The notes beneath the pieces are model-generated. The model was not told where the DNA came from. It ran no database searches and saw only the letters and a list, made by a program, of their open reading frames with translations. Shown piece by piece: positions 35,118 through 52,072 of a DNA stretch of 64,000 bases; positions within the stretch are counted from its first letter, which is position 1; each line of letters opens with the position of its first letter. The stretch comes from Brochothrix thermosphacta DSM 20171 = FSL F6-1036 (lineage in GTDB: Bacteria; Bacillota; Bacilli; Lactobacillales; Listeriaceae), in the NCBI RefSeq assembly GCF_036884295.1, contig NZ_CP145608.1, forward strand, positions 1,922,001 to 1,986,000, read 5' to 3'. The translations under genes were made by a program, and so were the position numbers.

Positions 35118-36926
35118 TTATTTTTCTATAATAATTGCTTCGAATTCAGCTAGACGTGCTTCGAAAACTTTCAAAGCATCCTCAATTGGTTTTGCAGTAG
35201 TCATGTCAACGCCAGCAGCTTTCAACACATCGATTGGATAATCCGAGTTACCTGCTTTTAAGAACGTCATGTAACGTTCTACTGCTGGAGCTCCTTCGTC
35301 CAAAATATGTTGTGCCAAAGCTGAAGCTGCAGAAAAACCAGTTGCATATTGATACACGTAATAATTGTAGTAGAAATGAGGAATACGCGCCCATTCGTTA
35401 CCAATTTCTTCATCGTGTACCAGTGCATCACCATAATATTTCTTATTAATACCATAGTAGAGATCAGTTAGATATTCAGCTGTTAAAGCGTTACCTTCTT
35501 GATCAGCAACATGAATAAGGTGCTCAAATTCTGCAAATTGTGTTTGACGGAAAACAGTACCTTTAAAACCATCAAGGAAATGGTTAATAATATAGGCTTG
35601 GATTTTTTTATCATCATATTTTTTCAGAAGATAATCTGTCAATAAATTTTCATTGGTAGTTGAAGCAATCTCTGCTAAAAAGATTGTATAATCGCCATAA
35701 ACTGCCGGTTGATTTTTTCGAGTGAGATAACTATGCACACTGTGCCCAAACTCATGAACTAATGTATACAAATTATCTAATGTATCATGCCAGTTTAATA
35801 GAATAAATGGATTGGTACCGTATGAACCGCCAGAGTATGCGCCACTACGTTTCCCTTTATTTTCAACCACATCTACCCAACGCTTATCAAAACCTTCTTT
35901 AAGGATAGAAACATATTCTTCACCCAAAGGTGCTAAGGCATTAATTGTTACTTGTTTAGCTTCTTCATACGTAAATGAAAGCTCATCTACATCCGCTACA
36001 AGCGGTGTGTAAAGATCGTAAACATGCAATTCGTCAAGACCTAATACCTGCTTGCGTAAACTCACATAACGATGTAATAAATCAACATTATTCCCTACCG
36101 TTTCAAGCAATGTTTTATGAACTGACTCAGGAATATTATTGCTGAAAACAGCCGACTCTCTGGCAGTACTAAACTTACGAACAGATGCATTGAAGTTATC
36201 TTGCTTAATTTGACCAGTCAACGTTGAGGCAAATGTATTAAGCAATGACTTATACGTTTTATACACATTTTGGAAAGCGTCACGACGCACACGACGATCG
36301 CTATTTTCCAATAATGGACCGTATAGACCGTGTGTAATCTCTACATCTTCACCATTTTCATCTTTGATTGTTGGAAAACGTAAATCTGCATTATTTAGAA
36401 TACCAAAAGTATTTTGTGATGAGCCTAATACTTCGCTCGCTTTAGCTAATAACGCTTCCTCAGGAGCAGACAATGTATGAGGACGTTTCTTATTGATTTG
36501 TTCTAACTCATGCGCGTATACACCTAATTCGTCAGATTCAGAAATAAAGGCGGCAAGTACCGCTTCGTCAATATCTAATAATTCCGGTTCAAAGAAAGAT
36601 AGTGCAGCTGAGGCTTTGGCAGCCAATGATTCTGCACGACTATTTAACGCTTGATACTCTGTATTGCTAGTATCTTGATCATGTTTCATACTTGCATAAA
36701 CATAAACTTGTGATAAACGAACAACAAGCTCATCACTATATTTTAAAGCTGCAAGAAGCTGGTCTGCACTATCACCTAATGTTTTTTGGAATTTAGTTGC
36801 TTCTTCTGCTAATACTTGGACAGCTTTAAATTCTGTTTCCCATGCTTTATCTGTTTCAAAAATACTTGTTAAGTCCCAAGTGTCTTTTACAGGCACTTCA
36901 GAGCGTGTAATTGCTTTTCCAGCCAT
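35118..36926 (-). CDS. pepF: Oligoendopeptidase F (M3 family)
   Basis: 602 residues, the usual length. A cytosolic zinc metallopeptidase that trims short peptides. The zinc site is LVHEFGHSVHSYLTR near residue 390 (HExxH), with a downstream Glu in FLAEIASTTNE. Start ATG with a nearby AAGGA-type site. In the order coiA-pepF after mecA-spxA, as in Listeria. Roles in protein turnover and peptide signalling have been proposed for the family. Confidence 0.96.
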   Translation of the reverse strand: MAGKAITRSEVPVKDTWDLTSIFETDKAWETEFKAVQVLAEEATKFQKTLGDSADQLLAALKYSDELVVRLSQVYVYASMKHDQDTSNTEYQALNSRAESLAAKASAALSFFEPELLDIDEAVLAAFISESDELGVYAHELEQINKKRPHTLSAPEEALLAKASEVLGSSQNTFGILNNADLRFPTIKDENGEDVEITHGLYGPLLENSDRRVRRDAFQNVYKTYKSLLNTFASTLTGQIKQDNFNASVRKFSTARESAVFSNNIPESVHKTLLETVGNNVDLLHRYVSLRKQVLGLDELHVYDLYTPLVADVDELSFTYEEAKQVTINALAPLGEEYVSILKEGFDKRWVDVVENKGKRSGAYSGGSYGTNPFILLNWHDTLDNLYTLVHEFGHSVHSYLTRKNQPAVYGDYTIFLAEIASTTNENLLTDYLLKKYDDKKIQAYIINHFLDGFKGTVFRQTQFAEFEHLIHVADQEGNALTAEYLTDLYYGINKKYYGDALVHDEEIGNEWARIPHFYYNYYVYQYATGFSAASALAQHILDEGAPAVERYMTFLKAGNSDYPIDVLKAAGVDMTTAKPIEDALKVFEARLAEFEAIIIEK

Positions 36927-37002
36927 TGTTAATCAGTCCTTTTTTTTAGTATGATTCTATTATCCAACAAGCCGCACCTTTGTGCAACCGTAAGCACTTA
37001 CA

Positions 37003-38115
37003 TTAATTTAGTTGGATTTGAAGCTGATTCATCGCCTGTTTCAAACGTGGCCATTCGCGTTTCTTTTCGATAGCATTAAAAACAATACCTTCTATTATAT
37101 ATCCATTGTTTTCGATTAACGCATAACCGAGTTTTACAAGCAGCTTAAGATAACTATGCCACAAATGATGCGAATATTGCTGATGGATATAAACAAAATA
37201 TTTCTTCGCAATTATTGTATCCCACCACTTGGAAATTTCTTCTATCGTTTTAAATCCCGTTGTTTGGATATATTTTATTAAGCGGTATTGCCAAATAAAG
37301 GCATCGGTATCAAGCAACCACTGTTGCGGTAAAACGACACCCACGTAATAAGGAAAATATAATAAATGTTCAGATGCACTATACAATTCGCGTTGAAACA
37401 TACGCTGTTCTTTTGATTTAAACTTAAAAATAGCTGTTTGCCTTTTATGTTCTGTCATTTCATTGGTGCTGTTCACTATCAAATCTCTATGCGTAATTAT
37501 CCATCTTGAAAGCTCTGAATAGGTTAAATCGGCTAATCCAATTTTAGCTACTTTAGCAAAAAAGCGTTTAGTGGATACCCCTCTTAAATCATAATATAAG
37601 TGTACTCTTTTTGTGATAGAGCAATAACTTAACAAATAAAAACCACATTTAGGGTGATAATTTATAAAAAAAATTTGCAGCTGACTCAAGTAAAGCGTTC
37701 CACCTTTGTATTTTGGCACACTCGTTAACCAAGTCACTGTTTTGCCTAATGACCGATAGCCTACCATCCGCTCTTTTAAAACCTTAGTTTGTAGATGCGA
37801 CTCTTGATACTCAATAATGTGATTCATTTTTGGTACATATATATCTGCTCGTTGCTTTAATTCAGGGAAATAAAATTCACTGCTTGCGCGATCTGTTTTA
37901 CTAATCCAATCATAAAGCTCTTTTTTTACTAGGCGATGTGTTGCTCCTTCGCCTGACTGGCAGCTGGTATTTTGTTTATGTGCAAAATGATGACGTTTTT
38001 TATCACCCTGTTTAATGATACATATAGCACCGCATGATGGACAATAATAAGGATGTTGCACGTTAGCTTCATTGATTTGTATGAGTTCGTCTTTTTGATT
38101 AATTGCTCGTTGCAT
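37003..38115 (-). CDS. coiA: Competence protein CoiA-like nuclease
   Basis: 370 residues. CoiA promotes recombination during natural transformation. A zinc-finger-like N-terminus (YYCPSCGAIC and RHHFAH) is followed by a PD-(D/E)xK-type core: RADIYVPK with the Asp and HIIEYQESH with Glu-x-Gln. It is full length. The neighbours mecA and spxA also affect competence in other Firmicutes. Whether the host is competent cannot be told. Confidence 0.9.
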   Translation of the reverse strand: MQRAINQKDELIQINEANVQHPYYCPSCGAICIIKQGDKKRHHFAHKQNTSCQSGEGATHRLVKKELYDWISKTDRASSEFYFPELKQRADIYVPKMNHIIEYQESHLQTKVLKERMVGYRSLGKTVTWLTSVPKYKGGTLYLSQLQIFFINYHPKCGFYLLSYCSITKRVHLYYDLRGVSTKRFFAKVAKIGLADLTYSELSRWIITHRDLIVNSTNEMTEHKRQTAIFKFKSKEQRMFQRELYSASEHLLYFPYYVGVVLPQQWLLDTDAFIWQYRLIKYIQTTGFKTIEEISKWWDTIIAKKYFVYIHQQYSHHLWHSYLKLLVKLGYALIENNGYIIEGIVFNAIEKKREWPRLKQAMNQLQIQLN

Positions 38116-38178
38116 ACAATCCCTCCTTAGTATTTAACCATTCGTCTTAATTGTCTAAACTACCTTTTAAATTTATAT

Positions 38179-38226
38179 AAAAAAAAGAGCTTCATCCTGA
38201 CCGAAAAAGGTCGAATGAAACTCTTA
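38179..38226 (-). terminator. Terminator of mecA
   Basis: A long imperfect stem (AAGAG..TTCAT..GACC with GGTC..ATGAA..CTCTT) around an AAAAA loop, with eight Ts on the minus strand. Confidence 0.85.
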
Positions 38227-38235
38227 ATATATGAT

Positions 38236-38916
38236 TTAACGTTCAAAATTTAATTTGATTGTTTCTAAAGCATTTTCTAATGCAATAACTTTCCCATATT
38301 CACGCATAACATGTGGTGATTTTTCTGATTCGTCTCCGTATTCAAGAAGAACACTTAACATGTCATCAATCGCATCAATGGCATTTTCTCGAGAATCAAA
38401 TTCAACCTCCAAGTAATAACGTTCTTTATAGTAATAGATATTAGAGTGTAATCCTGAAATTTTATCTTGGTGAGAAAGAGCAATGACATCTTCTAGCTCT
38501 TTAATCTCTAATACAAAATTGAGATTATCTGTATCTGCTTTTTTAGTATTCATTGCATCCACTTGTTCCTCTAATATTGCTTCGATTTGTTTTTCAACAT
38601 CATCTTCAATTTCTTTAGGTGATTTATTATCGCTGTCATTTTCTGCTGTAAACTCAAGATTGATTCCATCTTTAGCGAGATTTGCTTTAGTGACAACAAC
38701 CTCTAATCCTTTTTTCATTGCTTGTACTTGTATCCATAATGGACCATCTGGATTAAACTGATCTTCATAGTTTAACTCTTCCATCATATTCCAGAAAAGT
38801 TCTTCACTTTTATCACGGTTATACCAAATATCCTCATGATTGAAGCCTCTTTCTTCTAAATCACCATATGAAATATAAAACTTAATTGTATTTTCATTTA
38901 TTCTTTCTATTTCCAT
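38236..38916 (-). CDS. mecA: ClpC adaptor protein MecA
   Basis: 226 residues from the ATG at 38916 (MEIERINENTIKFYISYGDL). It activates ClpC and delivers substrates such as ComK; in streptococci it acts on ComX. N-terminal substrate domain about 1-80, acidic linker (NDSDNKSPKEIEDDVEKQ), C-terminal Clp-binding domain about 120-220. An upstream in-frame start would add 11 residues without family similarity and lie on the AAGGGAG site. Confidence 0.95.
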   Translation of the reverse strand: MEIERINENTIKFYISYGDLEERGFNHEDIWYNRDKSEELFWNMMEELNYEDQFNPDGPLWIQVQAMKKGLEVVVTKANLAKDGINLEFTAENDSDNKSPKEIEDDVEKQIEAILEEQVDAMNTKKADTDNLNFVLEIKELEDVIALSHQDKISGLHSNIYYYKERYYLEVEFDSRENAIDAIDDMLSVLLEYGDESEKSPHVMREYGKVIALENALETIKLNFER

Positions 38917-39124
38917 TTTCCACACTCTCCCTTCTCTTATGAGAAGCACTCTATCAGATGTAAGTATATGTACTCAATATCTTCTAATAGTTCTAATCTC
39001 TTATTATATATCCCATTCTAACCTATTCTCTCAAATAAAGAAAAGTATTTGTTTCATAATTAAGTTTTAATTGCACTAACCCTTTACATGTTGTTCATTT
39101 TTACAATTTTTCTTCAAAAGAAAC

Positions 39125-39157
39125 AAAAAAACTGATGCAATTTCATGCAATCAGCCT
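39125..39157 (-). terminator. Terminator of spxA
   Basis: CTGATTGCA pairs with TGCATCAG (one bulge), followed by seven Ts on the minus strand. Confidence 0.8.
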
Positions 39158-39174
39158 TGTTGTTATCAGTTAAT

Positions 39175-39582
39175 CTATGCTTGTAGTGCATTAGCCAAAC
39201 GTTGTGCTTCGCGTAATTTAAATGTACGCACACCACGAGGTAAGAAACGACGAATTTCGTCTTCATTATAACCCACTTGGATACGTTTTTCGTCAATGAT
39301 AATCGGGCGACGTAACAAACCTGGGTGTTGTTGAATTAACAAACAAAGTTCTTTAAGCGATAAGCTTTCCAAATCAAGATCTAACTTATGGAATGTTTTT
39401 GATCTTGTTGAGATAATCTCATCTGTGCCATTTTCTGTTAAACTTAAAATTCGTTTAATTTCATCCAATGACATATTATCGTTAAAATAATTACGTTCTT
39501 TATATTCAATGTTATGATCTTCTAACCAGTGTTTTGCTTTTCGACATGAAGTACAGCTTGGGGATGTGTATAATGTAACCAT
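39175..39582 (-). CDS. spxA: Spx-family transcriptional regulator
   Basis: 135 residues. Binds the RNA polymerase alpha C-terminal domain and turns on disulfide-stress genes. The redox switch is CTSC (Cys10, Cys13) and the conserved Arg lies in [27 protein letters not shown]. It is a substrate of SpxH-ClpXP, and spxH is at 25.9 kb. Beside mecA and coiA as in Listeria. AGGAGTG site before the ATG. Confidence 0.96.
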
Positions 39583-39745
39583 TTTCCATCCACTCCTTTT
39601 TTAAAATCATTATTAACTTCTATAACCATAGTATATCGCTTCTAAAAAAAGAACAGATGAAAAAAAAGCCCTCTTAACTAAGAATTTAATGAGAATTAGA
39701 AAAAAAGTTTCACTTTTATTATCATTTTACGTCATTTCAAAATGG

Positions 39746-39774
39746 TTGACAGAATAATTGTATCGTTATATCAT
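39746..39774 (+). promoter_or_regulatory. Promoter of trpS
   Basis: Consensus -35 TTGACA (39746-39751), 17-bp spacer, -10 TATCAT (39769-39774). Confidence 0.88.
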
Positions 39775-39784
39775 TAATATATAT

Positions 39785-40048
39785 TAAATGAACCGATGTT
39801 ATGACGAAGATTAGTAAACATAAAAATTACTTACAAGAGAGCCTGTGGTTGCTGGAAAATAGGCAAATAATTATGTTGAATGGACTTCCGAGCACTTTAT
39901 ATGAACCTTAAGTAGTATAAAGCGTCTAATCCACGTTAAACGATGCCTTTTTAGGAAGGCACGAGTGGCCAATTTATTGGCACTTAGGGTGGTACCGCGG
40001 ATTCAACACATTTTCGTCCCTTTTTAAGGAGATAGATGTGTTTTTTAT
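39785..40048 (+). promoter_or_regulatory. T-box leader with Trp specifier
   Basis: The conserved AGGGTGGTACCGCGG (39986-40000) is the T-box that contacts the tRNA acceptor end. TGG at 39881-39883, in the 3' side of stem I (TTGAATGGACTTCC), is the likely tryptophan specifier. A terminator stem (ACACA..TGTGT) with a T-run ends near 40046. Uncharged tRNA-Trp should let transcription continue into trpS. Confidence 0.93.
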
Positions 40049-40066
40049 TTTGTCTTTTTTTATTAA

Positions 40067-41071
<1,005 letters not shown>

Positions 41072-41084
41072 TCTTCACACTAAT

Positions 41085-41121
41085 AAAAAACACCCTGATT
41101 TTTAAAAATCAGGGTGTTTTT
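41085..41121. terminator. Bidirectional terminator between trpS and the peroxidase gene
   Basis: AAAAAACACCCTGATTTT and AAAATCAGGGTGTTTTT form a perfect long stem with A/T runs on both ends. Confidence 0.93.
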
Positions 41122-41133
41122 CTATAGAGTTAA

Positions 41134-41601
41134 TTAATCTAATAATGTCACGATATCTTTTTCGAATGATTCAGGTTCTACCTTACCTTCAAAACGATTC
41201 GTAATGACACCCTCACGATTAATTAAAAATTTAGTGAAGTTCCATGGAATTTTTTTCCCATCTGTTTCAGCTACTAAGTATTGATATAAAGGGTCCGCAT
41301 TGCGACCATTAACTTTAATTTTTTCATGCATTTTAAATGTCACACCATAGTTGATTTGACAGAATTCATTTATCGCTTCGTTACTTTTAGGGTCTTGTGC
41401 CAAAAATTGATTACAAGGAAAGCCCAATACAACAAACCCTTGATCCTCATACTTTTTGTAAAGCTCCTCTAAACCAGTTAACTGTTTAGTAAAGCCACAT
41501 TTACTTGCTGTATTAACAATTAAAATAACTTGATCTTTATACTTACTCAAAGATACTTTTTCCCCACTCATTTCAGTAACTTCAAAATCATAAATTGACA
41601 T
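41134..41601 (-). CDS. Glutathione/thioredoxin peroxidase (GPx family)
   Basis: 155 residues from the ATG at 41601, after AAAGGGTGG. A thioredoxin-fold peroxidase with Cys in place of selenocysteine: NTASKCGFTKQ (Cys35), GFPCNQF with the catalytic Gln, and IPWNFTKFL with the catalytic Trp. Bacterial Cys-type members usually take electrons from thioredoxin. An earlier in-frame start would place 15 unrelated residues in front. Confidence 0.95.
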   Translation of the reverse strand: MSIYDFEVTEMSGEKVSLSKYKDQVILIVNTASKCGFTKQLTGLEELYKKYEDQGFVVLGFPCNQFLAQDPKSNEAINEFCQINYGVTFKMHEKIKVNGRNADPLYQYLVAETDGKKIPWNFTKFLINREGVITNRFEGKVEPESFEKDIVTLLD

Positions 41602-41814
41602 ATTATCCCACCCTTTCTTGCTGTTATTATAACAGAGCATCATCAAATCACCGCCTATTTTGACTGACTATTTTATACATTGAATTTTTGTTAAATGTAT
41701 ATATTTTTAATGAAGTTTGATGGTAATCAAAACATTATCATCTTGGTAACACTGATGTACTATGATATCATTAAGATATATGTTTTTTTATGCGTATATC
41801 AGGAGGGATGTCCT

Positions 41815-42039
41815 TTGTTCATTATTTTCAGCTTAGCCGGTCGTATAATTGGTATAACAATTTCTTTAGTTTTAATCACATTAATCATTATATATATTAG
41901 AAAAGTATGTATTAACATCGATAAGCAACACAAAAACCCAACTTTTTTATTCTTTCTGAAGATAGCAATTGCTGTTACTATCATCGTGATTCTTTTACTC
42001 TTAATGTTCTTATTGTCTTCATTCGGTGTTAATAGCTAG
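41815..42039 (+). CDS. Small membrane protein, unknown
   Basis: 74 residues from the TTG at 41815, eight nt after AGGAGG (41801-41806). Two hydrophobic helices (about 5-28 and 46-68) with a charged loop (RKVCINIDKQHKNP). Single-gene unit with a terminator. Not recognised. Confidence 0.55.
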   Translation: MFIIFSLAGRIIGITISLVLITLIIIYIRKVCINIDKQHKNPTFLFFLKIAIAVTIIVILLLLMFLLSSFGVNS

Positions 42040-42054
42040 CTAGCTAACTATCGA

Positions 42055-42095
42055 TAAAAAAGACCTCCTAATTTTAGGAGGTCTTTTATTTTTCT
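42055..42095. terminator. Bidirectional terminator
   Basis: AAAAGACCTCCTAA and TTAGGAGGTCTTTT perfect stem between converging small membrane genes. Confidence 0.92.
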
Positions 42096-42115
42096 TATTT
42101 TAATTAAATTTCATT

Positions 42116-42331
42116 TCACAACAGTGGTTTTTTCTTGTTCTCACCATCTTTAATATAGGTTGTAAGGATATAACGAAAAATCACAAAACTAACGCTGGTA
42201 ATAAAAATAAGAGTCAGTAGCATTACGATGTTCAATTCACCTGAGCCAATTAAAAAAATAATAATTCCAAGCACACTACCAATACAAACAAACAGCAAAG
42301 ATATAAGTAATTGATTCATTGTTTTATCCAT
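42116..42331 (-). CDS. Small membrane protein, unknown
   Basis: 71 residues, ATG after AGGAGG. Two hydrophobic helices (about 7-28 and 33-55) and a basic tail (YIKDGENKKKPLL). It lies after the ECF transporter genes, about 60 bp from ecfA, on the same strand, and could be the last gene of that transcript. No family recognised. Confidence 0.6.
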   Translation of the reverse strand: MDKTMNQLLISLLFVCIGSVLGIIIFLIGSGELNIVMLLTLIFITSVSFVIFRYILTTYIKDGENKKKPLL

Positions 42332-42393
42332 AAAACTTCCTCCTATTCAATGGGTATGATTATATTATAATATACCCACATTATAGAAAAAAA

Positions 42394-43845
42394 CTACATC
42401 ATCTCTTTAATGCTCTCACCAATTACAGTTGGTTTATCCTCAATGATTTTCCCATCCTTCAAGCGAACAACCCTGGTGCAGCAAGAAGCAATAAAAGCTT
42501 CATCATGAGTCACAATGAAAATACACTTTTCTTTAAACAAAGGTGTTCGAAGGTAATCAGCCATTTGCTCCATATGATACCCATCTAATCCACTCGTTGG
42601 TTCATCTAATATCAAACAATCTCGCTCACGAATCAAACCAACAGATATAGATAGACGCTGTTTTTCTCCACCTGATAATTGCATCGGATGCGCCATTTTT
42701 AAATGTGTCAGTCCCATTTTATCTAAAAGCAACGCTGCTTTTTCAGTAATATTGGGTTGTTTTTCATTTCCCAAAATCAACTCTTTGGCTACGCTCTCAG
42801 AAAAAAGTTGATAATCAGCATCTTGAGCAACAAACCAACTGTGTTGCATCCGTTTACGCTGATTCATTTTAATGCCATTCATTTTAACAACACCTAATTT
42901 TGGTTTTATAAAGCCCGCTAATGCCCGAGCTAAGGTTGTTTTTCCAGCACCATTTCCTCCAACAATTGCAATAACTTCACCCGGGAAACCATTGAGTTCA
43001 GCTATGTTCAATTTAAAGGTACTATCTTTAGGTTGATAGACCAGCTTCTCAACTGAAACAAGTGGTGCTAACTTTGTGGTATCTATTGCTTCGTAAGCTG
43101 CTACTTTTGGTGCTAATTGACGTAAACCTTGATTCTTTCCTTCATTTTCAAGATACTCTTCTACTTCAATTTGCGGAATATCTGCTACAATTTCTCCTTG
43201 CTTTAATACAACTAAACGATCCATTACACCCATTAAATAATGCAGTCGGTGCTCACTGATAATCAGCGTTGCCCCTTGTTTTTTTAATTTTTCAATAAAA
43301 CTTGTTAAAAAAACAGCCATTTCAGCATCAAGATTCGATGAGGGTTCATCAAACAAGTAAACATTTGGGCTCATCATCTGTACGGATGAAAGTGCCACGC
43401 GCTGTTTTTCTCCACTTGAAAGTTGATACAATGAATGGTTCAATAAGTGGTTAATTTTTAAAGCTTCACTCACTTCTGACAACCTCGTTTGGATATCCGC
43501 TTGAGGCACTGCATGATTTTCCGCACCAAATACAACCTCATCCTTCACATGTAAACCGAAGAATTGGCTGCGAGGGTCTTGTAAGACAGAACCTACAGTA
43601 AAAGGAAGTTTCCATAACGGTTGAGTTGCTGTGTCAATACCATTCACAGTCACTTTTCCTTGGAGCTGCCCCTCATAATAATGAGGTACGAGACTATTCA
43701 TTAATCGTGTCAACGTTGTTTTACCTGAACCACTTTTACCAGTGATCACAACGACCTGACCTTGTGGTATTTTCAAGTTAAGCCCTTTAATACTTGGTTC
43801 TTCACGGCCCTGATATTTATATGTGACATCTTTTAGCTCTATCAT
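42394..43845 (-). CDS. ECF transporter ATPase, two ABC domains in one chain
   Basis: 483 residues. Two full ABC cassettes: first with GKSGSGKTT, LSSGEKQR and YLFDEPSSNLD; second with GGNGAGKTT, LSGGEKQR and LILDEPTSGLD. It replaces the usual EcfA-EcfA' pair and powers the T component encoded directly upstream, with one base between the genes. Being next to its own S component, it is a dedicated (group I) system. Confidence 0.93.
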   Translation of the reverse strand: MIELKDVTYKYQGREEPSIKGLNLKIPQGQVVVITGKSGSGKTTLTRLMNSLVPHYYEGQLQGKVTVNGIDTATQPLWKLPFTVGSVLQDPRSQFFGLHVKDEVVFGAENHAVPQADIQTRLSEVSEALKINHLLNHSLYQLSSGEKQRVALSSVQMMSPNVYLFDEPSSNLDAEMAVFLTSFIEKLKKQGATLIISEHRLHYLMGVMDRLVVLKQGEIVADIPQIEVEEYLENEGKNQGLRQLAPKVAAYEAIDTTKLAPLVSVEKLVYQPKDSTFKLNIAELNGFPGEVIAIVGGNGAGKTTLARALAGFIKPKLGVVKMNGIKMNQRKRMQHSWFVAQDADYQLFSESVAKELILGNEKQPNITEKAALLLDKMGLTHLKMAHPMQLSGGEKQRLSISVGLIRERDCLILDEPTSGLDGYHMEQMADYLRTPLFKEKCIFIVTHDEAFIASCCTRVVRLKDGKIIEDKPTVIGESIKEMM

Positions 43846-44514
43846 TTATAACCCTACTTCCAAAGCGATTCCAAGAATAACTGCCAGTATGCTTACCGTT
43901 TTATCAAACCACTTAAAATGTAACTGCTCAGCATTTGTACGCGTATTGTTCAACTCAATCCCACGTAATGTTGCCGATACAGATAATTCCTCACTAATTT
44001 TAATGCTACGAAATAAAAACGGAATCATCAAATATTCCCATTTTTCCCAGAACGGTCTTCCCATTAAACGTTGTTTGACGTATTGGCGAATTGTTTTATA
44101 TTCATTTAACAGCGTAGGCGTATAACGCATACAAACGACCACCGGCAAACTAATTCGACGTGAAAAATGCATTTTCTCAAAAAACTGGAGCATTTCAGAA
44201 GGCGAGATTTTTCTCAATAAAGGAACAGCTGCCATGTAGATTGGCATTAAGCGTAGACCGAAATACGGAAAGATTAAAAACATTGAAATACTTTGGGGTA
44301 AGTCCATGCTTTCGCCAACCGCATAAAGGGCATAAAAAATAACAAATGTGAGAATCATGTAAAATGTAGTCTTATAAAAACCTTGTACAACTAAATACAA
44401 GGCTAAAAAGGCGCTGAACCACATTATTGGGATTAAACTATTCGCAACAAAAGCCATAATCATTGCCATTATTAAAACAATAATGGTGCTTAATGGGTGA
44501 AATCTAACTGACAT
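43846..44514 (-). CDS. ECF transporter transmembrane component (EcfT)
   Basis: 222 residues, five to six helices. The coupling region has VSATLRGIELNN, a match to the AxRG motif that docks on the ATPases. It starts with an AGGAG site and is 12 bp after the S-component gene. Forms the membrane scaffold of the transporter. Confidence 0.9.
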   Translation of the reverse strand: MSVRFHPLSTIIVLIMAMIMAFVANSLIPIMWFSAFLALYLVVQGFYKTTFYMILTFVIFYALYAVGESMDLPQSISMFLIFPYFGLRLMPIYMAAVPLLRKISPSEMLQFFEKMHFSRRISLPVVVCMRYTPTLLNEYKTIRQYVKQRLMGRPFWEKWEYLMIPFLFRSIKISEELSVSATLRGIELNNTRTNAEQLHFKWFDKTVSILAVILGIALEVGL

Positions 44515-44526
44515 GTTCTTGGCTCC

Positions 44527-45111
44527 TTAGTGTCGACTAACAGATGTGAAGTGTTTGTTGACCATTTTTATACTAATATATGCAGCAACTAATGAAAATA
44601 CGACTGTGATGGCACCCACAAATAGTTGACCTTGAACGCTTAAATACAAATCAATCATTTCGTTAGCATATGGCTTACTTGAGCGTAATGCTGAAATATA
44701 TTTTTCTCTAAAGAATGTGAATGGAATAATCATTGAAATATTGACAACGACATAATGTAGAATATGTGAAAAGACAATCAGTTTATTACTCTTATAACCG
44801 TTATTTACTTTAAGCAACCACTCACTAATTAAAGCAGCTACTAAGATAAATGGCACTGTATACCACATTCCCATAAACATTAATAAAATACCTAAAACTA
44901 CGTTAAAAATCAAAATTACACCTGGTTTAGCAATTCGGCGGCACATTACCAAATAAGGTAACATTGTTAAAAGCGACATTGTTGCAGTTTCTATATAAAC
45001 ACGAATAGGTGTCACAATTGTAAGTCCAAAACCTACAACACCCATTAAAATATAAATTATACCTGTGAAAATACCAATTGTTACCAAATCGCGAATGGTT
45101 AATTTTTCCAT
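44527..45111 (-). CDS. ECF substrate-binding membrane component (Trep_Strep/MptS type)
   Basis: 194 residues from the ATG at 45111, after AGAGGA. Six hydrophobic helices; TIRDLVTIGIFTGIIYILMG fits the start of the Trep_Strep group of S components. The ligand is unknown for most members. The Fur-type box in the promoter points to iron or an iron compound such as heme. ECF heme importers are known in other Firmicutes (for example the Fur-controlled LhaSTA of Staphylococcus lugdunensis); assignment here is inference. Confidence 0.85.
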   Translation of the reverse strand: MEKLTIRDLVTIGIFTGIIYILMGVVGFGLTIVTPIRVYIETATMSLLTMLPYLVMCRRIAKPGVILIFNVVLGILLMFMGMWYTVPFILVAALISEWLLKVNNGYKSNKLIVFSHILHYVVVNISMIIPFTFFREKYISALRSSKPYANEMIDLYLSVQGQLFVGAITVVFSLVAAYISIKMVNKHFTSVSRH

Positions 45112-45152
45112 GAAGTTCATTCCTCTTTTCTTTCTGATGACATACTCATTCT

Positions 45153-45182
45153 ATTTTAATTGATAGTCATTCTCAATGTCAA
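45153..45182 (-). promoter_or_regulatory. Fur-box promoter of the ECF operon
   Basis: -35 TTGACA (45177-45182) and -10 TAAAAT (45153-45158) with an 18-bp spacer. Inside the spacer, TGATAGTCATTCTCA (45161-45175) matches the Fur/PerR/Zur 7-1-7 core TGATAATnATTATCA at 12 of 14 positions. Repression by a Fur-family protein with iron is the best reading. Confidence 0.75.
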
Positions 45183-45196
45183 TGTTTTAGCTATAT

Positions 45197-45227
45197 AAAA
45201 AGTACATTCACTAGGAATGTACTTTCT
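45197..45227 (-). terminator. Terminator of fabF
   Basis: AAAGTACATTC and GAATGTACTTT arms with a short loop, then a T-rich tail on the minus strand. Confidence 0.88.
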
Positions 45228-45255
45228 TTAGTAGTAACTTATTCAAACGAAGTAC

Positions 45256-46494
45256 TTAGTCGTTAAACTGTTTGAAAATCAAACACGCGTTATGTCCACC
45301 GAACCCAAATGAGTTAGATAAAACAGTATTTACTTCTACTTCACGCTTCACGTTAGGTACATAATCTAAATCACATACTTCATCCGCTTCATTTAAGTGA
45401 ATTGTAGGAGCAATTGCATTGTCACGAATTGTTTGAACAGCGAATACCGCTTCAATTCCACCAGATGCACCGAGCGTATGCCCTGTCATCGATTTAGTTG
45501 AAGAAATAGGCGTTGAGTAAGCAGCTTCACCAAAAACTGATTTGATTGCTGCTGTTTCGTACTCATCGTTGTAAGGTGTGCTTGTTCCATGAGCATTGAT
45601 ATAATCAATTGCCTCTGGTTCAAGCGTAGCATCTGCTAAAGCTTTTTTCATCGCACGAGCAGCACCTTCGCCATTTGGAGCAGGTGCAGTCATATGATAA
45701 GCATCTCCAGTAGAACCATAACCAACAAGCTCTGCATAAATTTTAGCACCACGCGCTTGCGCATGTTCCAACTCTTCAATAACTAAAATACCAGCGCCTT
45801 CTCCGATAACGAAACCATCACGGTTTTTATCAAATGGACGTGAAGCTGTGTCAACATCAGGATTAAGCGATAACGCTTTGCTTGATGTGAAACCTGCCAT
45901 CGACATTTTAGTAATCGGTGCTTCAGCTCCACCAGTAATCATCGCTACTGCATCGCCACGTTGAACTACTCTAAAAGCATCACCAATAGAATTTGTTCCT
46001 GTTGCACATGCTGTAACAGTTGCAGAGTTAACTCCCTTAGCTCCTAATTGAATTGAAACTTGACCTGTTGCCATATCAGGAATCATCATTGGAACGAAGA
46101 AAGGACTCACACGACTAGGACCACGTTTAATTAACTTCTCAAATTCTTTTTCGTATGTTTCCATACCACCGATACCAGATCCAATCCAAACACCAATATC
46201 TTCAGCATTTGTTTCATCAATTGTTAACTGAGCATCTTCAACTGCCATAAAAGCAGATGCAACTGCGAATTGTGTAAAACGGTCCATATGACGGCCGGCT
46301 TTACGATCAATGTACGTTGCAATATCAAAATCTTTTACTTCCGCACCAACTTTAACTGCGTATTCAGTAGTGTCTAATCGAGTAAGCTCTCCAACCCCAT
46401 TTTTACCTGCTAAAGCATTTTCCCATGACTCTTCAGCTGTGTTTCCTAATGGTGTTATTGAACCAACACCCGTGATAACTACACGTTTGGTCAT
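45256..46494 (-). CDS. fabF: 3-oxoacyl-[ACP] synthase II
   Basis: 412 residues. Condenses malonyl-ACP with growing acyl chains. The Cys-His-His triad is visible: [27 protein letters not shown] and [14 protein letters not shown]. It follows fabH by about 150 bp and is probably in the same FapR-controlled operon. The spacing leaves room for a minor promoter. Confidence 0.97.
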
Positions 46495-46645
46495 CGTATC
46501 TTTCGCTCCTTTTAAAGTAATATAAACTACCTTTGTAAATTTAGTCTTTTAGAAAAAGTATAATAATGTCGTTAAATAAAAAGACCATCCTCTTCTATTA
46601 TATATTAATTTCAGTATTTGTGAATTCATTTGTATCTTTTATCTT

Positions 46646-47584
46646 TTATTTACCCCAACGAAGTAACACTGCACCCCATGTTAAACCGCCACCAAAGCCT
46701 ACAAGTACAATATTGTCACCGTCTTTAACTTTACCTGAACGAACGGCATCACAAAGAGCTACAGGTATTGAAGCTGATGATGTATTACCATATTTGTGAA
46801 CAGTTTTAATCATTTTTTCTTCTGGTAAATTAAGTCGTTCACGAGCAGCATTCATAATACGAATATTAGCTTGATGAGGAATTAATAAATCGAGCTCTTC
46901 TTTTTCAATGCCTGCTTTTTCAAGAACCGACAAGGCTGAATAACCCATTTGACGTACTGCGAATTTAAAGACTTCGCTTCCGTTCATATTAATATTATGA
47001 TTTTCATCTTCATAAAGGAATTCAGCGCCAGCTCCATCCGAACCTAACTCAAAGCTCAAAATACCATTGTCATCGCTTACTGCTCCTAAAACGGCTGCTC
47101 CTGCTCCATCGCCAAAAAGAACAGCAGTTGAGCGGTCTTCCCAGTTTGTCGCTTTAGAAAGCTTATCAGCACCAATAACAAGCACATTTTTATACGTACC
47201 CGCTTCAATAAAATGTTTAGCAGTTACAACACCAAACATAAAACCTGAACAAGCTGCTTCAAGATCCATGCCAGGGATTTTTTTAGAACCAATCGCATGT
47301 TGCACATAATTTGAAATAGAAGGATGGCGTTGTGTCTGCGTTACAGTAGCAGTGATAATAAAATCAATATCTTCGGGCTGTAACCCTGCATCTTTGATAG
47401 CATCTTTTGCAGCTCCAATTGCCATATCAACAGTATCAATATCATCTGGTGCAATACGTCGTTCTTCAATTCCTGTTCGTGTGCGAATCCACTCATCATT
47501 TGTATCGATAATTTTTTCTAAATCTTTATTTGTAACGATATTATCTGGAATATAACTTCCGACCCCTAAAATTCCTGCGTTCAT
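46646..47584 (-). CDS. fabH: 3-oxoacyl-[ACP] synthase III
   Basis: 312 residues from the ATG at 47584 ([15 protein letters not shown], as in Listeria FabH). A TTG six bases upstream also suits the AAGGAG site. Starts fatty-acid synthesis by joining acyl-CoA and malonyl-ACP; in this family branched primers are usual. Catalytic Cys in LEAACSGF, His in [11 protein letters not shown], Asn in KYGNTSSAS. Confidence 0.96.
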
Positions 47585-47610
47585 TTTCAAAAACACTCCT
47601 TCGATTCTTA

Positions 47611-47655
47611 TTATGACCTGGTACTAATTTTAAAACATTTATTTGTTTTTTGCAA
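47611..47655 (-). promoter_or_regulatory. FapR operator overlapping the fabH promoter
   Basis: -35 TTGCAA (47650-47655), 17-bp spacer, -10 TAAAAT (47627-47632). TTAGTACCAGGTCATAA (47611-47627) right after the -10 matches the FapR operator pattern (TTAGTACC..GGT). Malonyl-CoA should relieve FapR repression of the fabH-fabF operon. Confidence 0.8.
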
Positions 47656-47790
47656 CTTTGTTTGTTCATTTATCACGCACTCTTTATTTATAATGACACA
47701 TTTACCGATTATTTTATAGATTAACGTTCATAACTTCTGTAAATATGCTAAAATGAAAGCAGCAATGGTTATAATTTGGAGGTGTCAACG

Positions 47791-47973
47791 ATGCGTTATT
47801 TTATCTCTGCGCTTTGGGTTTTCATTTTAAGTGCAATGTCTAACTATGTTGTAAGTTCGATGTCTGATGTGCCTTTCCACATAGGTCAAACAGTCATCCT
47901 AGGGACTCTCGTTACCTTAGCGATCTGGTTCTTACCAGCTATCCTTAAAAGTCACGATGAGCTTTCTGAATAA
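47791..47973 (+). CDS. DUF2929/YjzD-like small membrane protein
   Basis: 60 residues from the ATG at 47791, after GGAGGTG. Two hydrophobic helices (about 3-22 and 33-53). The opposite orientation to fabH matches the place of yjzD in Bacillus. Function unknown. Confidence 0.8.
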   Translation: MRYFISALWVFILSAMSNYVVSSMSDVPFHIGQTVILGTLVTLAIWFLPAILKSHDELSE

Positions 47974-47983
47974 TACGTATGAA

Positions 47984-48013
47984 ACTCTATGCCCAACGCA
48001 TAGGGTTTTTATT
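47984..48013 (+). terminator. Terminator of the DUF2929 gene
   Basis: ACTCTATGC and GCATAGGGT arms, 5-nt loop, then TTTTTATTT. Confidence 0.85.
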
Positions 48014-48016
48014 TAC

Positions 48017-48057
48017 AAAAAAAGGTGCTGAATATTTTTATTCAGCACCTTTCTTTT
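48017..48057 (-). terminator. Terminator of gpmA (works both ways)
   Basis: AAAGGTGCTGAATA and TATTCAGCACCTTT near-perfect stem, A-run before and T-run after. Confidence 0.92.
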
Positions 48058-48078
48058 TAGCTTAGTCTAATTACCACT

Positions 48079-48765
48079 TTATTTTAAATAATGTTTACTC
48101 ACGACTGTTAAATCATCTGCTAATTCGTATACAAGTGGTGTTCCTGTTGGAATTTCCACTTCCATAATATCAGCATCAGAAATATTATCGAGATATTTTA
48201 TTAACGCTCTTAAACTGTTACCATGTGCTGCAACAACAACGTTCTCACCACGTAAAAGTGCTGGTGAAATCGCATCAGACCAATAAGGTAGCACACGTTC
48301 TAATGTTACTTTAAGGTTTTCACCACCAGGTAACACACGTTGATCAACGTTTGCGTAGCGGCGATCATGCGTTGGGTGATGTTCATCACTCACTTCCATC
48401 AAAGGTGGCAAAACATCATAACTACGACGCCATTGGTGCACTTTTTCATCACCATACTTCGCAGCAGTTTCAGCTTTGTTTAATCCTTGTAAAGCTCCGT
48501 AATGACGTTCATTTAGACGCCAATGTTTTGTTACAGGCAACCAATCTTGATCGCTTTCCTGCAATACAAAATTCAACGTATGAACTGCCCGTTTTAAAAC
48601 CGATGTAAAGGCGTGATCAAATGAAATGTTTTCGTTTTTGATTAGCTGACCTGCATGCTTCGCTTCCTCAATACCTTGTTCCGAAAGTTCAACATCTTCC
48701 CAGCCAGTAAAAAGATTCTTTTTGTTCCATTCACTTTGTCCATGACGAATTAACACTAATTTCAT
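48079..48765 (-). CDS. gpmA: 2,3-bisphosphoglycerate-dependent phosphoglycerate mutase
   Basis: 228 residues. Interconverts 3- and 2-phosphoglycerate in glycolysis. [10 protein letters not shown] holds the phospho-His; [16 protein letters not shown] and [13 protein letters not shown] hold the other active-site residues. AGGAGG site before the ATG. It follows clpB by 18 bp and is likely read through from the CtsR-controlled promoter. Confidence 0.96.
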
Positions 48766-48783
48766 ATGATCTCCTCCTTCTGA

Positions 48784-51372
48784 TTACGCTTCTTTCGTAA
48801 TCAGTAATTGCCCTTCTTGAACAGTCACAACTGCTGTATCACCTTCACCTATATCCCCGGCAATAATTTCACGCGCAAGCGGTGTTTCAATATGACGAAT
48901 CATATAGCGATTGAGCGGACGAGCGCCATATGCTGGATCATAAGCTTCCTCACCAATGAATTTAGCTGCTTCATCAGTGATTTTCAAAGTGATTTGTTGT
49001 TCGTTAAGACGTTCTTCGAGGCTCTTAGCTAATTTTAATACAATCCCTGAAATATTATCAAGCGATAACGGTTTAAATAACACTATGTCATCCACACGAT
49101 TTAAAAATTCAGGTTTGAAATGTCCTCTTAACGTTGCCATAACTTGCTCCTCAGCTTCTGGGCTAATTTGTTGATTTTTTGTTCCTTCAAGTAAATATTG
49201 TGAACCGATATTCGATGTCATAATAATGACTGTGTTTTTAAAATCAACGAGTCGACCTTGTGAGTCAGTGATTCGTCCATCATCTAACACTTGTAATAAA
49301 ATGTTAAATACATCTGGATGGGCTTTCTCAATCTCATCAAGCAATATAATTGAGTAAGGGTTTCGACGCACTGCCTCAGTGAGTTGTCCACCTTCTTCAT
49401 AACCTACATAGCCTGGTGGTGCTCCAACTAAACGAGACACTGAGTATTTTTCCATGTATTCGCTCATATCGATGCGAACCATATGATCTTCACTGTCAAA
49501 CAATTGGTTAGCCAAAGCTTTGGCTAACTCTGTTTTACCAACACCTGTAGGACCTAAGAAGATGAACGAACCAATAGGACGTCGTGGATTTTTTATACCT
49601 GCACGTGCTCTAATAACGGCATCACTCACTAATTCAACAGCTTCATTTTGACCAATAACACGTTCATGCAATGCATCGTCAAGATGTAGTAATTTGTTAC
49701 GTTCTCCTTCGACAAGCCGTTTAACTGGTACGCCTGTCCAACGAGATACTACATCAGCTATTTCTTCTTGTGTCACAGATTCTTGCACTAAACGATTATC
49801 ATCTGATGCATTTTCAGCCGTTGCTTCTAGTTCAGCCAAACGTTGTTCCTCTTCAGGAATTTTACCATGACGCAACTCTGCTGCTTTGCTTAGGTCATAG
49901 TTGTTTTCAGCATCTTCCAACTGATGACGTAATTCATCAATATAGCTACGCACTTCACGTACATTAGCAATTTCATCTTTTTCTGCTTTCCATTTTGCTT
50001 CCATTTGTTGTTTCTCTTCTTTAAGTTCACTTAACTCTTCTCGTAATACATCTAAACGAGTTGCACTCACATCATCTTTTTCTTGTTCAAGTGCTGCTTC
50101 CTCAATCTCTAGTTGCATCACACGACGCGTTATTTCATCTAACTCATTTGGCATTGAGTCAATTTCAACACGAATGGTTGCACAAGCTTCATCAACAAGG
50201 TCAATGGCTTTATCTGGTAAGAATCGATCGGTAATGTAACGATCAGCCAATGTTGCTGCTGATACTAGCGCATTATCGTGGATATTAACACCATGATGGA
50301 TTTCAAAACGTTCTTTCAATCCACGTAAAATTGATACTGTATCCTCAACTGATGGTTCAGGTACTAATACTTTTTGGAAACGACGCTCTAGCGCTGCGTC
50401 TTTTTCAATATATTGACGGTACTCATCTAATGTTGTAGCACCAATACAATGCAATTCACCACGTGCTAACATCGGTTTCAACATATTCCCCGCATCCATT
50501 GCTCCGTCAGTTTTACCTGCACCAACAATCGTGTGAATCTCATCAATAAAGAGTATGATATTCCCTTCACTATTTTGAACTTCTTCCAACACTGCTTTGA
50601 GTCGTTCTTCAAATTCACCACGGTATTTAGCACCGGCGATTAAAGAACCAATATCTAAAGAGAATATTGTTTTATCTTTAAGGTTTTCCGGTACATCTTT
50701 TCGAACAATACGTGCTGCTAAGCCTTCAACAATAGCTGTTTTACCAACACCTGGTTCTCCAATCAATACAGGATTATTTTTTGTTTTACGACTAAGTATT
50801 CGGATTACATTTCTAATTTCAGTATCACGTCCGATAACTGGCTCAATTTTACCAGCACGAACAGCCTCTACTAAATCAATACCATATTTACTTAGTGCTT
50901 CATATGTTTGTTCTGCGTTTTGATTCATAACATGTTTCCCCCCTCTGACTTTATCAACTACTGCCTGTAGTTCTTTTGTTTTTAGATTCAATTTCTTTTT
51001 CAATTCATTTTTAGTCATGCTTTGTAAACCTAATAGAAAATGTTCTGTCGATAAAAAAGCATCTTCTAAGGTTTCTCTGTGTTTGTTGGCTTCAGCTAGC
51101 ACTTCATACAAATCGCCTGAAAGTTGCTGTCCGTAAGTTACACTATTACCAGTCACAATTGGTTGTTTATCTAATTGTTCATTAAGATATTTCTCAATTT
51201 GTTTTAAATCAATATTTAATTCTGTGTAGATACGTTTTGCAAGTTCATTAGATGTGATAAAGACTAACCATAAATGCCAAATATCAATCGTTTGATGTTG
51301 TCGCGTTACTGCTATTTGTTGGGCTTCTGCGATATCAGATTGAACTTGACTTGTCATTTTATTCGGTTCCAA
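48784..51372 (-). CDS. clpB: ATP-dependent disaggregase ClpB
   Basis: About 862 residues. A hexameric AAA+ chaperone that pulls proteins out of aggregates with DnaK. N-domain about 1-145; NBD1 with [13 protein letters not shown] near 205; coiled middle domain about 400-525; NBD2 with [14 protein letters not shown] near 600. The TTG at 51372 lies eight nt after GAGG and is preferred; a GTG at 51381 and ATG at 51378 overlap that site, while ATG 51357 is a further option. No ClpP-binding loop is expected. Controlled by a CtsR box. Confidence 0.96.
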
Positions 51373-51403
51373 GATCATCACCTCTTCTTTAATTTATAAA
51401 TCA

Positions 51404-51432
51404 ATTATAAGTCAAAATAGGTCAGCAATCAA
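51404..51432 (-). promoter_or_regulatory. CtsR operator inside the clpB promoter
   Basis: -10 TATAAT (51404-51409) and -35 TTGATT (51427-51432), 17-bp spacer. The spacer itself is AGTCAAAATAGGTCAGC on the plus strand (51410-51426), which fits the CtsR heptad repeat RGTCAAA-NAN-RGTCAAA at 15 of 17 positions. Heat or protein stress should release CtsR. Confidence 0.85.
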
Positions 51433-51718
51433 TAAAAAACACTTATTTTTCCAACAAATTATTTTTAAATTTTGGTGGTGGCGTTGAAAAATACAGCTTT
51501 TAAAAATCTTTATGATACTTTTTAAATTACCGCTATGAGTTATTTCAAGTCAAAAAAATTCGGCGTTACCTTTGCTTTATTTCCTGGGAAAAACACTTGA
51601 TCATTGTTTGCAACCACCATTAACAGTTGCGCAACTAATGAGTGCGTTACTCCTTTAATTGCTTATATTATACTTTTAACAAAGAACGGAATTATATTAT
51701 AAGGAGACTGTATTTTAA

Positions 51719-52072
51719 ATGGATAACAAAATAAAAGTTAGTGTTCTAATTATGTTAATGGTGCTTTCTTATCTCTATTTTTTCAAATTTCATGAGTATG
51801 AAGCAATGAAAGAAATAAATCGTACTATAGTCAAACAAGGATTACATAGAAATGATATTCTACGGCAAACAAAACTTAAAAAAGATAGAAATAGGGATGT
51901 TTACTATTCTGAGATAATTTTTAAAGACGATGTTAACACAGTCTATACCTATTTTTATTCACATTCACGTAAAGCTGTGCCTTTTCAAATTTCAATCACA
52001 TCCTTTAACTCTAAAAATAAGTCGCCAAAACATTCAAGTATTTATGACATAAAAAAAATCATTATTAAATAA
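51719..52072 (+). CDS. DUF3139-like small secreted/membrane protein
   Basis: 117 residues: one N-terminal helix (VSVLIMLMVLSYLYFF), then a basic, Tyr-rich extracellular part (RDVYYSEIIFKDDVNTVYTYFY). Length and layout fit DUF3139. AAGGAG lies 12-13 nt before the ATG, a bit far. First of three small membrane genes in a row. Upstream (51625-51636) lies a perfect 12-bp palindrome AGTTGCGCAACT. Confidence 0.65.
   Translation: MDNKIKVSVLIMLMVLSYLYFFKFHEYEAMKEINRTIVKQGLHRNDILRQTKLKKDRNRDVYYSEIIFKDDVNTVYTYFYSHSRKAVPFQISITSFNSKNKSPKHSSIYDIKKIIIK

Follow-up and report, generated by a model that had tools for sequence, protein, structure and literature searches.

A Fur-boxed PF09605 ECF transporter operon of Brochothrix thermosphacta and its probable iron-complex ligand

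The stretch of DNA analyzed here (the window) comprises 64,000 nucleotides of the single-contig, 2.56-Mb genome of Brochothrix thermosphacta DSM 20171 (contig NZ_CP145608.1, positions 1,922,001 to 1,986,000) and carries, on its minus strand, three adjacent genes for an energy-coupling factor (ECF) transporter. The original prediction, made from the window alone, described a dedicated operon of S, T and A components with an S of the Trep_Strep type, and the three minus-strand open reading frames (ORFs) and their profile matches indeed agree with this. The S gene (44527-45120; 197 amino acids) matched PF09605 (Trep_Strep) with an E of 8.5e-35 (120.9 bits, against a curated cut-off of 28.7), and also the NCBIfam model TIGR02185, 'MptD family putative ECF transporter S component' (85.6 bits, cut-off 76.45). 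The T gene (43846-44514; 222 amino acids) gave a weak CbiQ/EcfT match (PF02361; 21.8 bits) that fell below the curated Pfam cut-off of 25, and a profile grown from this T found a T-like gene in the equivalent slot of most related loci; it is on these two observations that the T of this dedicated ECF module is assigned. The A gene (42394-43845; 483 amino acids) encodes a fused double ECF ATPase with two ABC_tran stretches, whose best NCBIfam model was ECF_ATPase_1 at 280.9 bits, below the equivalog cut-off of 315. S and T are separated by 12 bases and T and A by none, and from these gaps the three genes are probably co-transcribed. The ribosome-binding site GAGGA (45121-45125, minus strand) abuts the ATG at 45118-45120, and because of this spacing the ATG at 45109-45111 is the more likely true start of S.

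The S product was also predicted to have the fold of an S component. In an AlphaFold2 model built from 18 sequences (mean pLDDT 85.3, pTM 0.82), the first six VIA-align ranks were all ECF S components, with Z scores of 11.3 for 5edl (root-mean-square deviation 3.6 over 169 residues), 9.6 for 4tkr and 9.4 for 3rlb, it being noted that Z values under about 13 are not decisive for helical proteins and that the best Foldseek E for the model was 0.15. A sequence search for a PF09605 protein of solved structure returned none, its single row (E 0.62) being an unrelated enzyme.

The promoter of S, read on the minus strand, consists of a -35 element TTGACA (45177-45182) and a -10 element TAAAAT (45153-45158), and the 18-base spacer between them contains a Fur-like box (45161-45175), a 15-mer that reads TGATAGTCATTCTCA on the plus strand. 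The original prediction had placed such a box between the two elements, and this stood up well: it has two mismatches to TGATAATNATTATCA, and the corresponding promoter of Brochothrix campestris FSL F6-1037 carries a box of zero mismatches in the equivalent place, flanked by TTGACT and an identical TAAAAT. Moreover, a second copy of this exact 15-mer (L022, position 7379) precedes another operon of the genome, which encodes a lipoprotein of the Peripla_BP_2 family and a FecCD permease. The genome has four zero-mismatch boxes, three of which precede iron genes: one stands before paired FecCD and reductase genes, one before a FecCD operon and one before a NEAT locus, while the fourth (656309, L003) has no clear iron gene beside it. 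We considered that the box in the window might be a chance match and the operon not iron-regulated at all. Background counts lend this some weight, since the genome has 81 Fur-pattern sites of up to two mismatches against 47 with the reversed pattern, so that a lone two-mismatch match is weak, and the window has 18 matches of up to three mismatches against 13.0 expected; on these counts, taking the two-mismatch box as strong by itself was rejected. Nevertheless, its location within the promoter, the perfect box in the sister species and the recurrence of such boxes across PF09605 loci make chance very improbable indeed. Shuffles of the 310 bp upstream of S attained two mismatches with P of about 0.003, and the B. 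campestris box and the 15-mer of the FecCD operon are stronger support than the window box alone. With a promoter box conserved in a relative, the operon is a probable member of the Fur regulon, and binding by Fur and repression by iron are predicted for S-T-A.

Fur boxes of up to two mismatches were then counted upstream of other PF09605 S genes. They were found in both Brochothrix loci, in seven of eight Staphylococcus loci, in six of 11 Paenibacillaceae-type loci (a group that here includes L097 and L165) and in one of two loci of other Bacilli, against respective shuffle means of 0.02, 0.15, 0.07 and 0.04. When pooled, 16/23 loci were boxed (14/21 without Brochothrix), whereas the shuffle means add up to about 0.3. 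None of 12 streptococcal or enterococcal-type loci had such a box, and of the remaining 30, which are mostly clostridial, one did; among 13 additional Lactobacillales loci, L293 and L302 had a box with two mismatches and the others had three to five. The Staphylococcus, Streptococcus and Paenibacillaceae-type labels are themselves inferred, and the S. lugdunensis (G842) and S. pyogenes (G910) genomes were assigned from gene order.

The ligand might also be another metal chelate or a cofactor precursor, with Fur control being incidental or cross-regulatory. PF09605 is a broad family, the near absence of Fur-like boxes from the mostly clostridial loci would fit this, and one S-T-A operon (L165, the same place as L226 12276-16518) carries a perfect Zur box in front of S as well as, after A, a CobW-family gene that we take to be linked to zinc, which together suggest an ECF for zinc or a zincophore. 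The Brochothrix promoters argue otherwise, since the one of B. campestris combines its perfect Fur box with four mismatches to the Zur pattern, and the one in the window has six (five in a longer stretch). We therefore consider this alternative improbable, whereas a Fur-controlled importer of an iron complex, taking siderophore and heme together, is quite probable. In such a scheme, iron shortage would take Fur off the box within the promoter and allow the S-T-A transcript to be made, S would bind the iron complex at the outer face of the membrane, and the T/A module would spend ATP to turn S over and release the cargo inside.

Regarding the nature of the iron complex, the original prediction held that the ligand of this group of S components is mostly unknown, which proved too strong, since PF09605 was found at both heme and siderophore loci. 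In a Staphylococcus genome with the isd layout of S. lugdunensis, the S gene at the LhaS position is PF09605 (E 1.3e-50); in the published layout, the lha genes lie between isdJ and isdB (PMC7299338). Among 147 Streptococcus genomes, six have NEAT proteins. Four Shr-bearing Streptococcus loci comprise, in order, shr, an shp-like gene, genes for a binding protein, a permease and an ATPase, two exporter-type ABC genes, and S, T and A, an order that fits the sia operon, whose SiaFGH is presumably the streptococcal heme ECF mentioned in the LhaS literature. The S of these loci is again PF09605 (E 1.7e-42 to 6.4e-48), and siaF, siaG and siaH are listed for the S, T and A components, with MtsR as the regulator (PMC6593403). 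The S. lugdunensis-like genome has a second PF09605 ECF (L221 4240-19900; E 2.2e-62), located in an equibactin-like nonribosomal peptide synthetase (NRPS) cluster, where genes in the order S-T-A-exporter-exporter adjoin those for a protein with a condensation domain and for a reductase/methyltransferase protein. This order matches eqbHIJKL, and by analogy EqbH itself is probably PF09605. EqbHIJ is reported to be needed for siderophore-linked iron import (PMC3672683), and an equibactin-like cluster with an ECF is reported from S. lugdunensis (PMC12709192). Within open-licence papers, we found none that names ligands for PF09605 as a whole or describes the Brochothrix operon.

Phylogeny of the S component against heme ECF proteins was then examined. 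The S set had 65 rows, after leaving out L091 and L095 (which are loci L152 and L153), L103 (a near-copy of L102) and fragments below 150 amino acids; it became 69 rows with L221-L224 added, and this larger set was used for histidine and Zur scoring. Trees were built from S (65 rows), from T+A (50 rows) and from S+T+A (49 rows in a careful tree and 60 in a quick one). Fifteen of the 65 rows, including L150, L154, L156, L160 and L170, were left out of the T+A and S+T+A trees because T or A was missing from its usual slot; the long-branched L109 was left out of both S+T+A trees, and the 60-row tree is without L295, L299 and L298, for the last of which no T/A had been picked. Outside the genus, identity to any row was at most 27% for S, 26% for T and 39% for A; the LhaS authors remarked that heme S subunits share remarkably little sequence similarity (PMC7299338). 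In all trees, Brochothrix was placed among rows of the Paenibacillaceae type and related ones, and away from both LhaSTA and SiaFGH: it belonged to a small set with a support of 88 in the T+A tree, to a set of 10 rows (99/96) in the careful S+T+A tree, whose other members include Paenibacillaceae-type rows and Treponema, and to a 19-row set (99) in the quick one. For Brochothrix, approximately unbiased (AU) tests rejected a group with LhaSTA at a p of 4.3e-7, one with SiaFGH at 1.4e-4 and one with the two together at 3e-74. Thus, the S and S+T+A trees and the AU tests rejected close kinship of the Brochothrix S with LhaS or SiaF, and the operon lies outside a heme ECF clade shared with either; the branch that it does occupy contains siderophore-linked members, although it is a long branch in which the trees single out no sister.

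A residue pattern of the heme-locus S proteins was likewise absent from Brochothrix. Six rows of the LhaS type, of which two are isd-linked and four are other members of that clade, were compared together with five sia-linked rows, and exactly two histidine columns are invariant among them; one is C-terminal, family-wide and kept in Brochothrix, and the other directly follows a conserved glycine. This post-glycine histidine, which we refer to as the GH histidine (a motif defined in this analysis), is present in 11/11 of these rows and is replaced by Met85 in both Brochothrix species. By the model, it would be in the loop between the third and fourth transmembrane helices, outside the cell if the N-terminus is inside. 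The spectrum of LhaS was interpreted as histidine coordination (PMC7299338). The GH histidine occurs in 23/69 rows, several of them with no known ligand, and is missing from all nine NRPS- or salicylate-linked rows found. As the rows are related to one another, this distribution is a pattern rather than a tally of separate cases. In L291 and L294, the closest Lactobacillales rows, a histidine stands three places past the glycine. The S proteins of L291, L292 and L294 have KLTIRDLVTIGI as in Brochothrix, plus GVPH at the loop.

Within the Brochothrix branch, loci L150, L152, L153, L156 and L170 adjoin genes for a fusion protein of about 1000 amino acids, with AMP-ligase and chorismate-binding parts, and for a thioesterase, a combination that we take to be the signature of a salicylate siderophore of the yersiniabactin or equibactin kind; L150 and L170 additionally have a phosphopantetheinyl transferase. 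Fur-like boxes of zero or one mismatch lie between these siderophore-type genes and S. L152 and L153 are complete S-T-A loci, whereas L150, L156 and L170 have S without adjoining T or A and were placed by the S tree only. These last three are lone S genes at the Fur-boxed promoters of salicylate-siderophore clusters, and two of the lone-S genomes (G258 and G391) carry a complete S-T-A operon elsewhere (L155 and L151). L097 adjoins an NRPS-like protein with AMP-binding, methyltransferase and thioesterase domains. In one Lactobacillales genus (L291, L292 and L294), the gene for a family-5 solute-binding lipoprotein follows A, separated from it in L294 by one amidotransferase gene, and a FecCD system is close by; in L293, a FecCD system and an esterase lie about 4-9 kb upstream. 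By eye, the listed neighborhoods of the Brochothrix branch showed neither NEAT nor isd genes. Overall, inspection of the gene lists of 12, 20 (in part) and 13 loci, fewer than the full 69 rows, linked at least nine rows to genes of the NRPS or salicylate type (L097, L149, L150, L152, L153, L156, L170, L181 and L221), the linkage of L181 being loose, at 3.7 kb.

Since the Brochothrix branch includes siderophore gene clusters, the 'iron chelate' of the original 'heme or an iron chelate' is somewhat favored over heme, the iron control common to both having been strengthened by the boxed loci. The reading that we prefer, at just short of an even chance, is a Fur-repressed, dedicated ECF importer whose ligand is a ferric siderophore, or a small metallophore like it, scavenged from neighbors. 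Several observations weigh against it. The Brochothrix branch is long (1.62 changes per column in the 49-row S+T+A tree) and, given this length and the low identities of S and T, the context of the branch transfers to Brochothrix weakly. The nearest row by path in that tree is L165, which is Zur-boxed and not Fur-boxed. In the 60-row tree, the equibactin-like rows L221 and L147 group with LhaSTA in one 18-row set (95) that leaves SiaFGH outside, so that ligand type does not cleanly track the tree; naming the ligand from tree position alone was rejected for this sharing of a set by equibactin-like and LhaS rows. Of the nine rows linked to siderophore clusters, five have an exporter pair, which the Brochothrix operon, like LhaSTA, lacks. 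Met85, or His122, which is conserved in both Brochothrix species, could serve as a heme contact. Lastly, both Brochothrix genomes have a NEAT heme locus. As to synthesis of its own, the B. thermosphacta genome has two chorismate-binding proteins (L304 and L305), one encoded next to a glutamine amidotransferase and the other flanked by menA-like and menD-like genes; judged by eye from these neighbors, they look like TrpE and MenF, so that no salicylate synthase was seen in this genome, in which no NRPS search was made.

The other candidate is heme, taken up as by LhaSTA or SiaFGH through a different heme contact, in which case the operon would be a second route beside the Isd-like NEAT locus. 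That PF09605 includes the S genes found where LhaS and SiaF are expected, that the operon resembles LhaSTA in being S-T-A with no exporter pair, and that the genome has, besides the Fur-boxed NEAT locus, a Fur-boxed ABM-domain protein that is presumably IsdG-like, all speak for heme. Against it are the AU rejections and the missing GH histidine, leaving heme a doubtful but serious contender, and a ferric siderophore somewhat the more likely ligand. The NEAT locus (L186 10320-18301; genome 894319-902300) has a perfect Fur box in front and encodes a one-NEAT protein, a 1508-amino acid protein with nine NEAT stretches, a Peripla_BP_2 binding protein, a FecCD permease and a sortase, with no ATPase gene in its gene list.

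Around the operon itself, no siderophore biosynthesis genes or exporter pair were seen by eye among the ORFs of 36000-52000, and the full-length exporter-type ABC proteins of the genome are located away from it. Downstream of A lies a membrane-like ORF of 71 amino acids (42116-42331, minus strand) with no Pfam family above cut-off. Of 36 genomes of the bacterial family, PF09605 is present in two, both Brochothrix, the second being the B. campestris genome, whose S is 79% identical; either gain by Brochothrix or loss in the others would explain this. This second genome was named in a scan of named genomes that was run with a single pattern; it yielded 20 loci and is a sample, not a census.

ECF uptake of heme and of siderophores has so far been described case by case. 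With LhaS-, SiaF- and equibactin-type S proteins in one family, often iron-boxed and once zinc-boxed, a simple, testable ligand rule for many unassigned ECFs can be formulated, and a probable iron source is named for a meat-spoilage bacterium. Accordingly, we offer the conjecture, unlikely to hold in full, that PF09605 S proteins form one broad family of metal-complex importers in which the regulator names the metal (Fur for iron, Zur for zinc) and the extracellular residue after the conserved glycine the kind of complex (His for heme; Met, Tyr or Ser for a metallophore), and that the Brochothrix ECF pirates foreign ferric siderophores. If true, Brochothrix, without salicylate synthesis of its own, would pirate siderophores on meat that it shares with the producers.

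Among named systems, the heme ECF LhaSTA of S. lugdunensis (PMC7299338) shares with the Brochothrix operon the S-T-A order, the PF09605 S, the fused double ATPase, the Fur box before S and the lack of an adjoining exporter pair. Its copy in L140 is 20-21% identical in S, 21% in T and 34% in A, and it differs in lying within the isd locus, in having the GH histidine and in the rejected common clade. SiaFGH of S. pyogenes (PMC6593403) shares the S-T-A order and the PF09605 S, but it lies in the sia operon behind two exporter-type ABC genes, is under MtsR and has the GH histidine; SiaF-type S proteins are 17-19% identical to that of Brochothrix, a common clade is again rejected, and no Fur box was found there, in contrast to the Fur-boxed Brochothrix operon. 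EqbHIJ of Streptococcus equi (PMC3672683) resembles the Brochothrix operon as a three-gene importer under iron control; in the equibactin-like L221, the PF09605 S is followed by T, A and the exporter pair, whereas Brochothrix has neither an adjoining NRPS nor an exporter pair. For the Paenibacillaceae-type loci (L146, L150-L153, L155, L156, L160 and L170), no characterized member was found in open-licence literature. They differ from Brochothrix in the adjoining exporter pair, AraC regulator or siderophore genes, and their S proteins are 22-25% identical to its own; nonetheless, it is these loci that share its branch, in the S or the S+T+A trees, and many of them have, as in Brochothrix, a Fur-like box in front.

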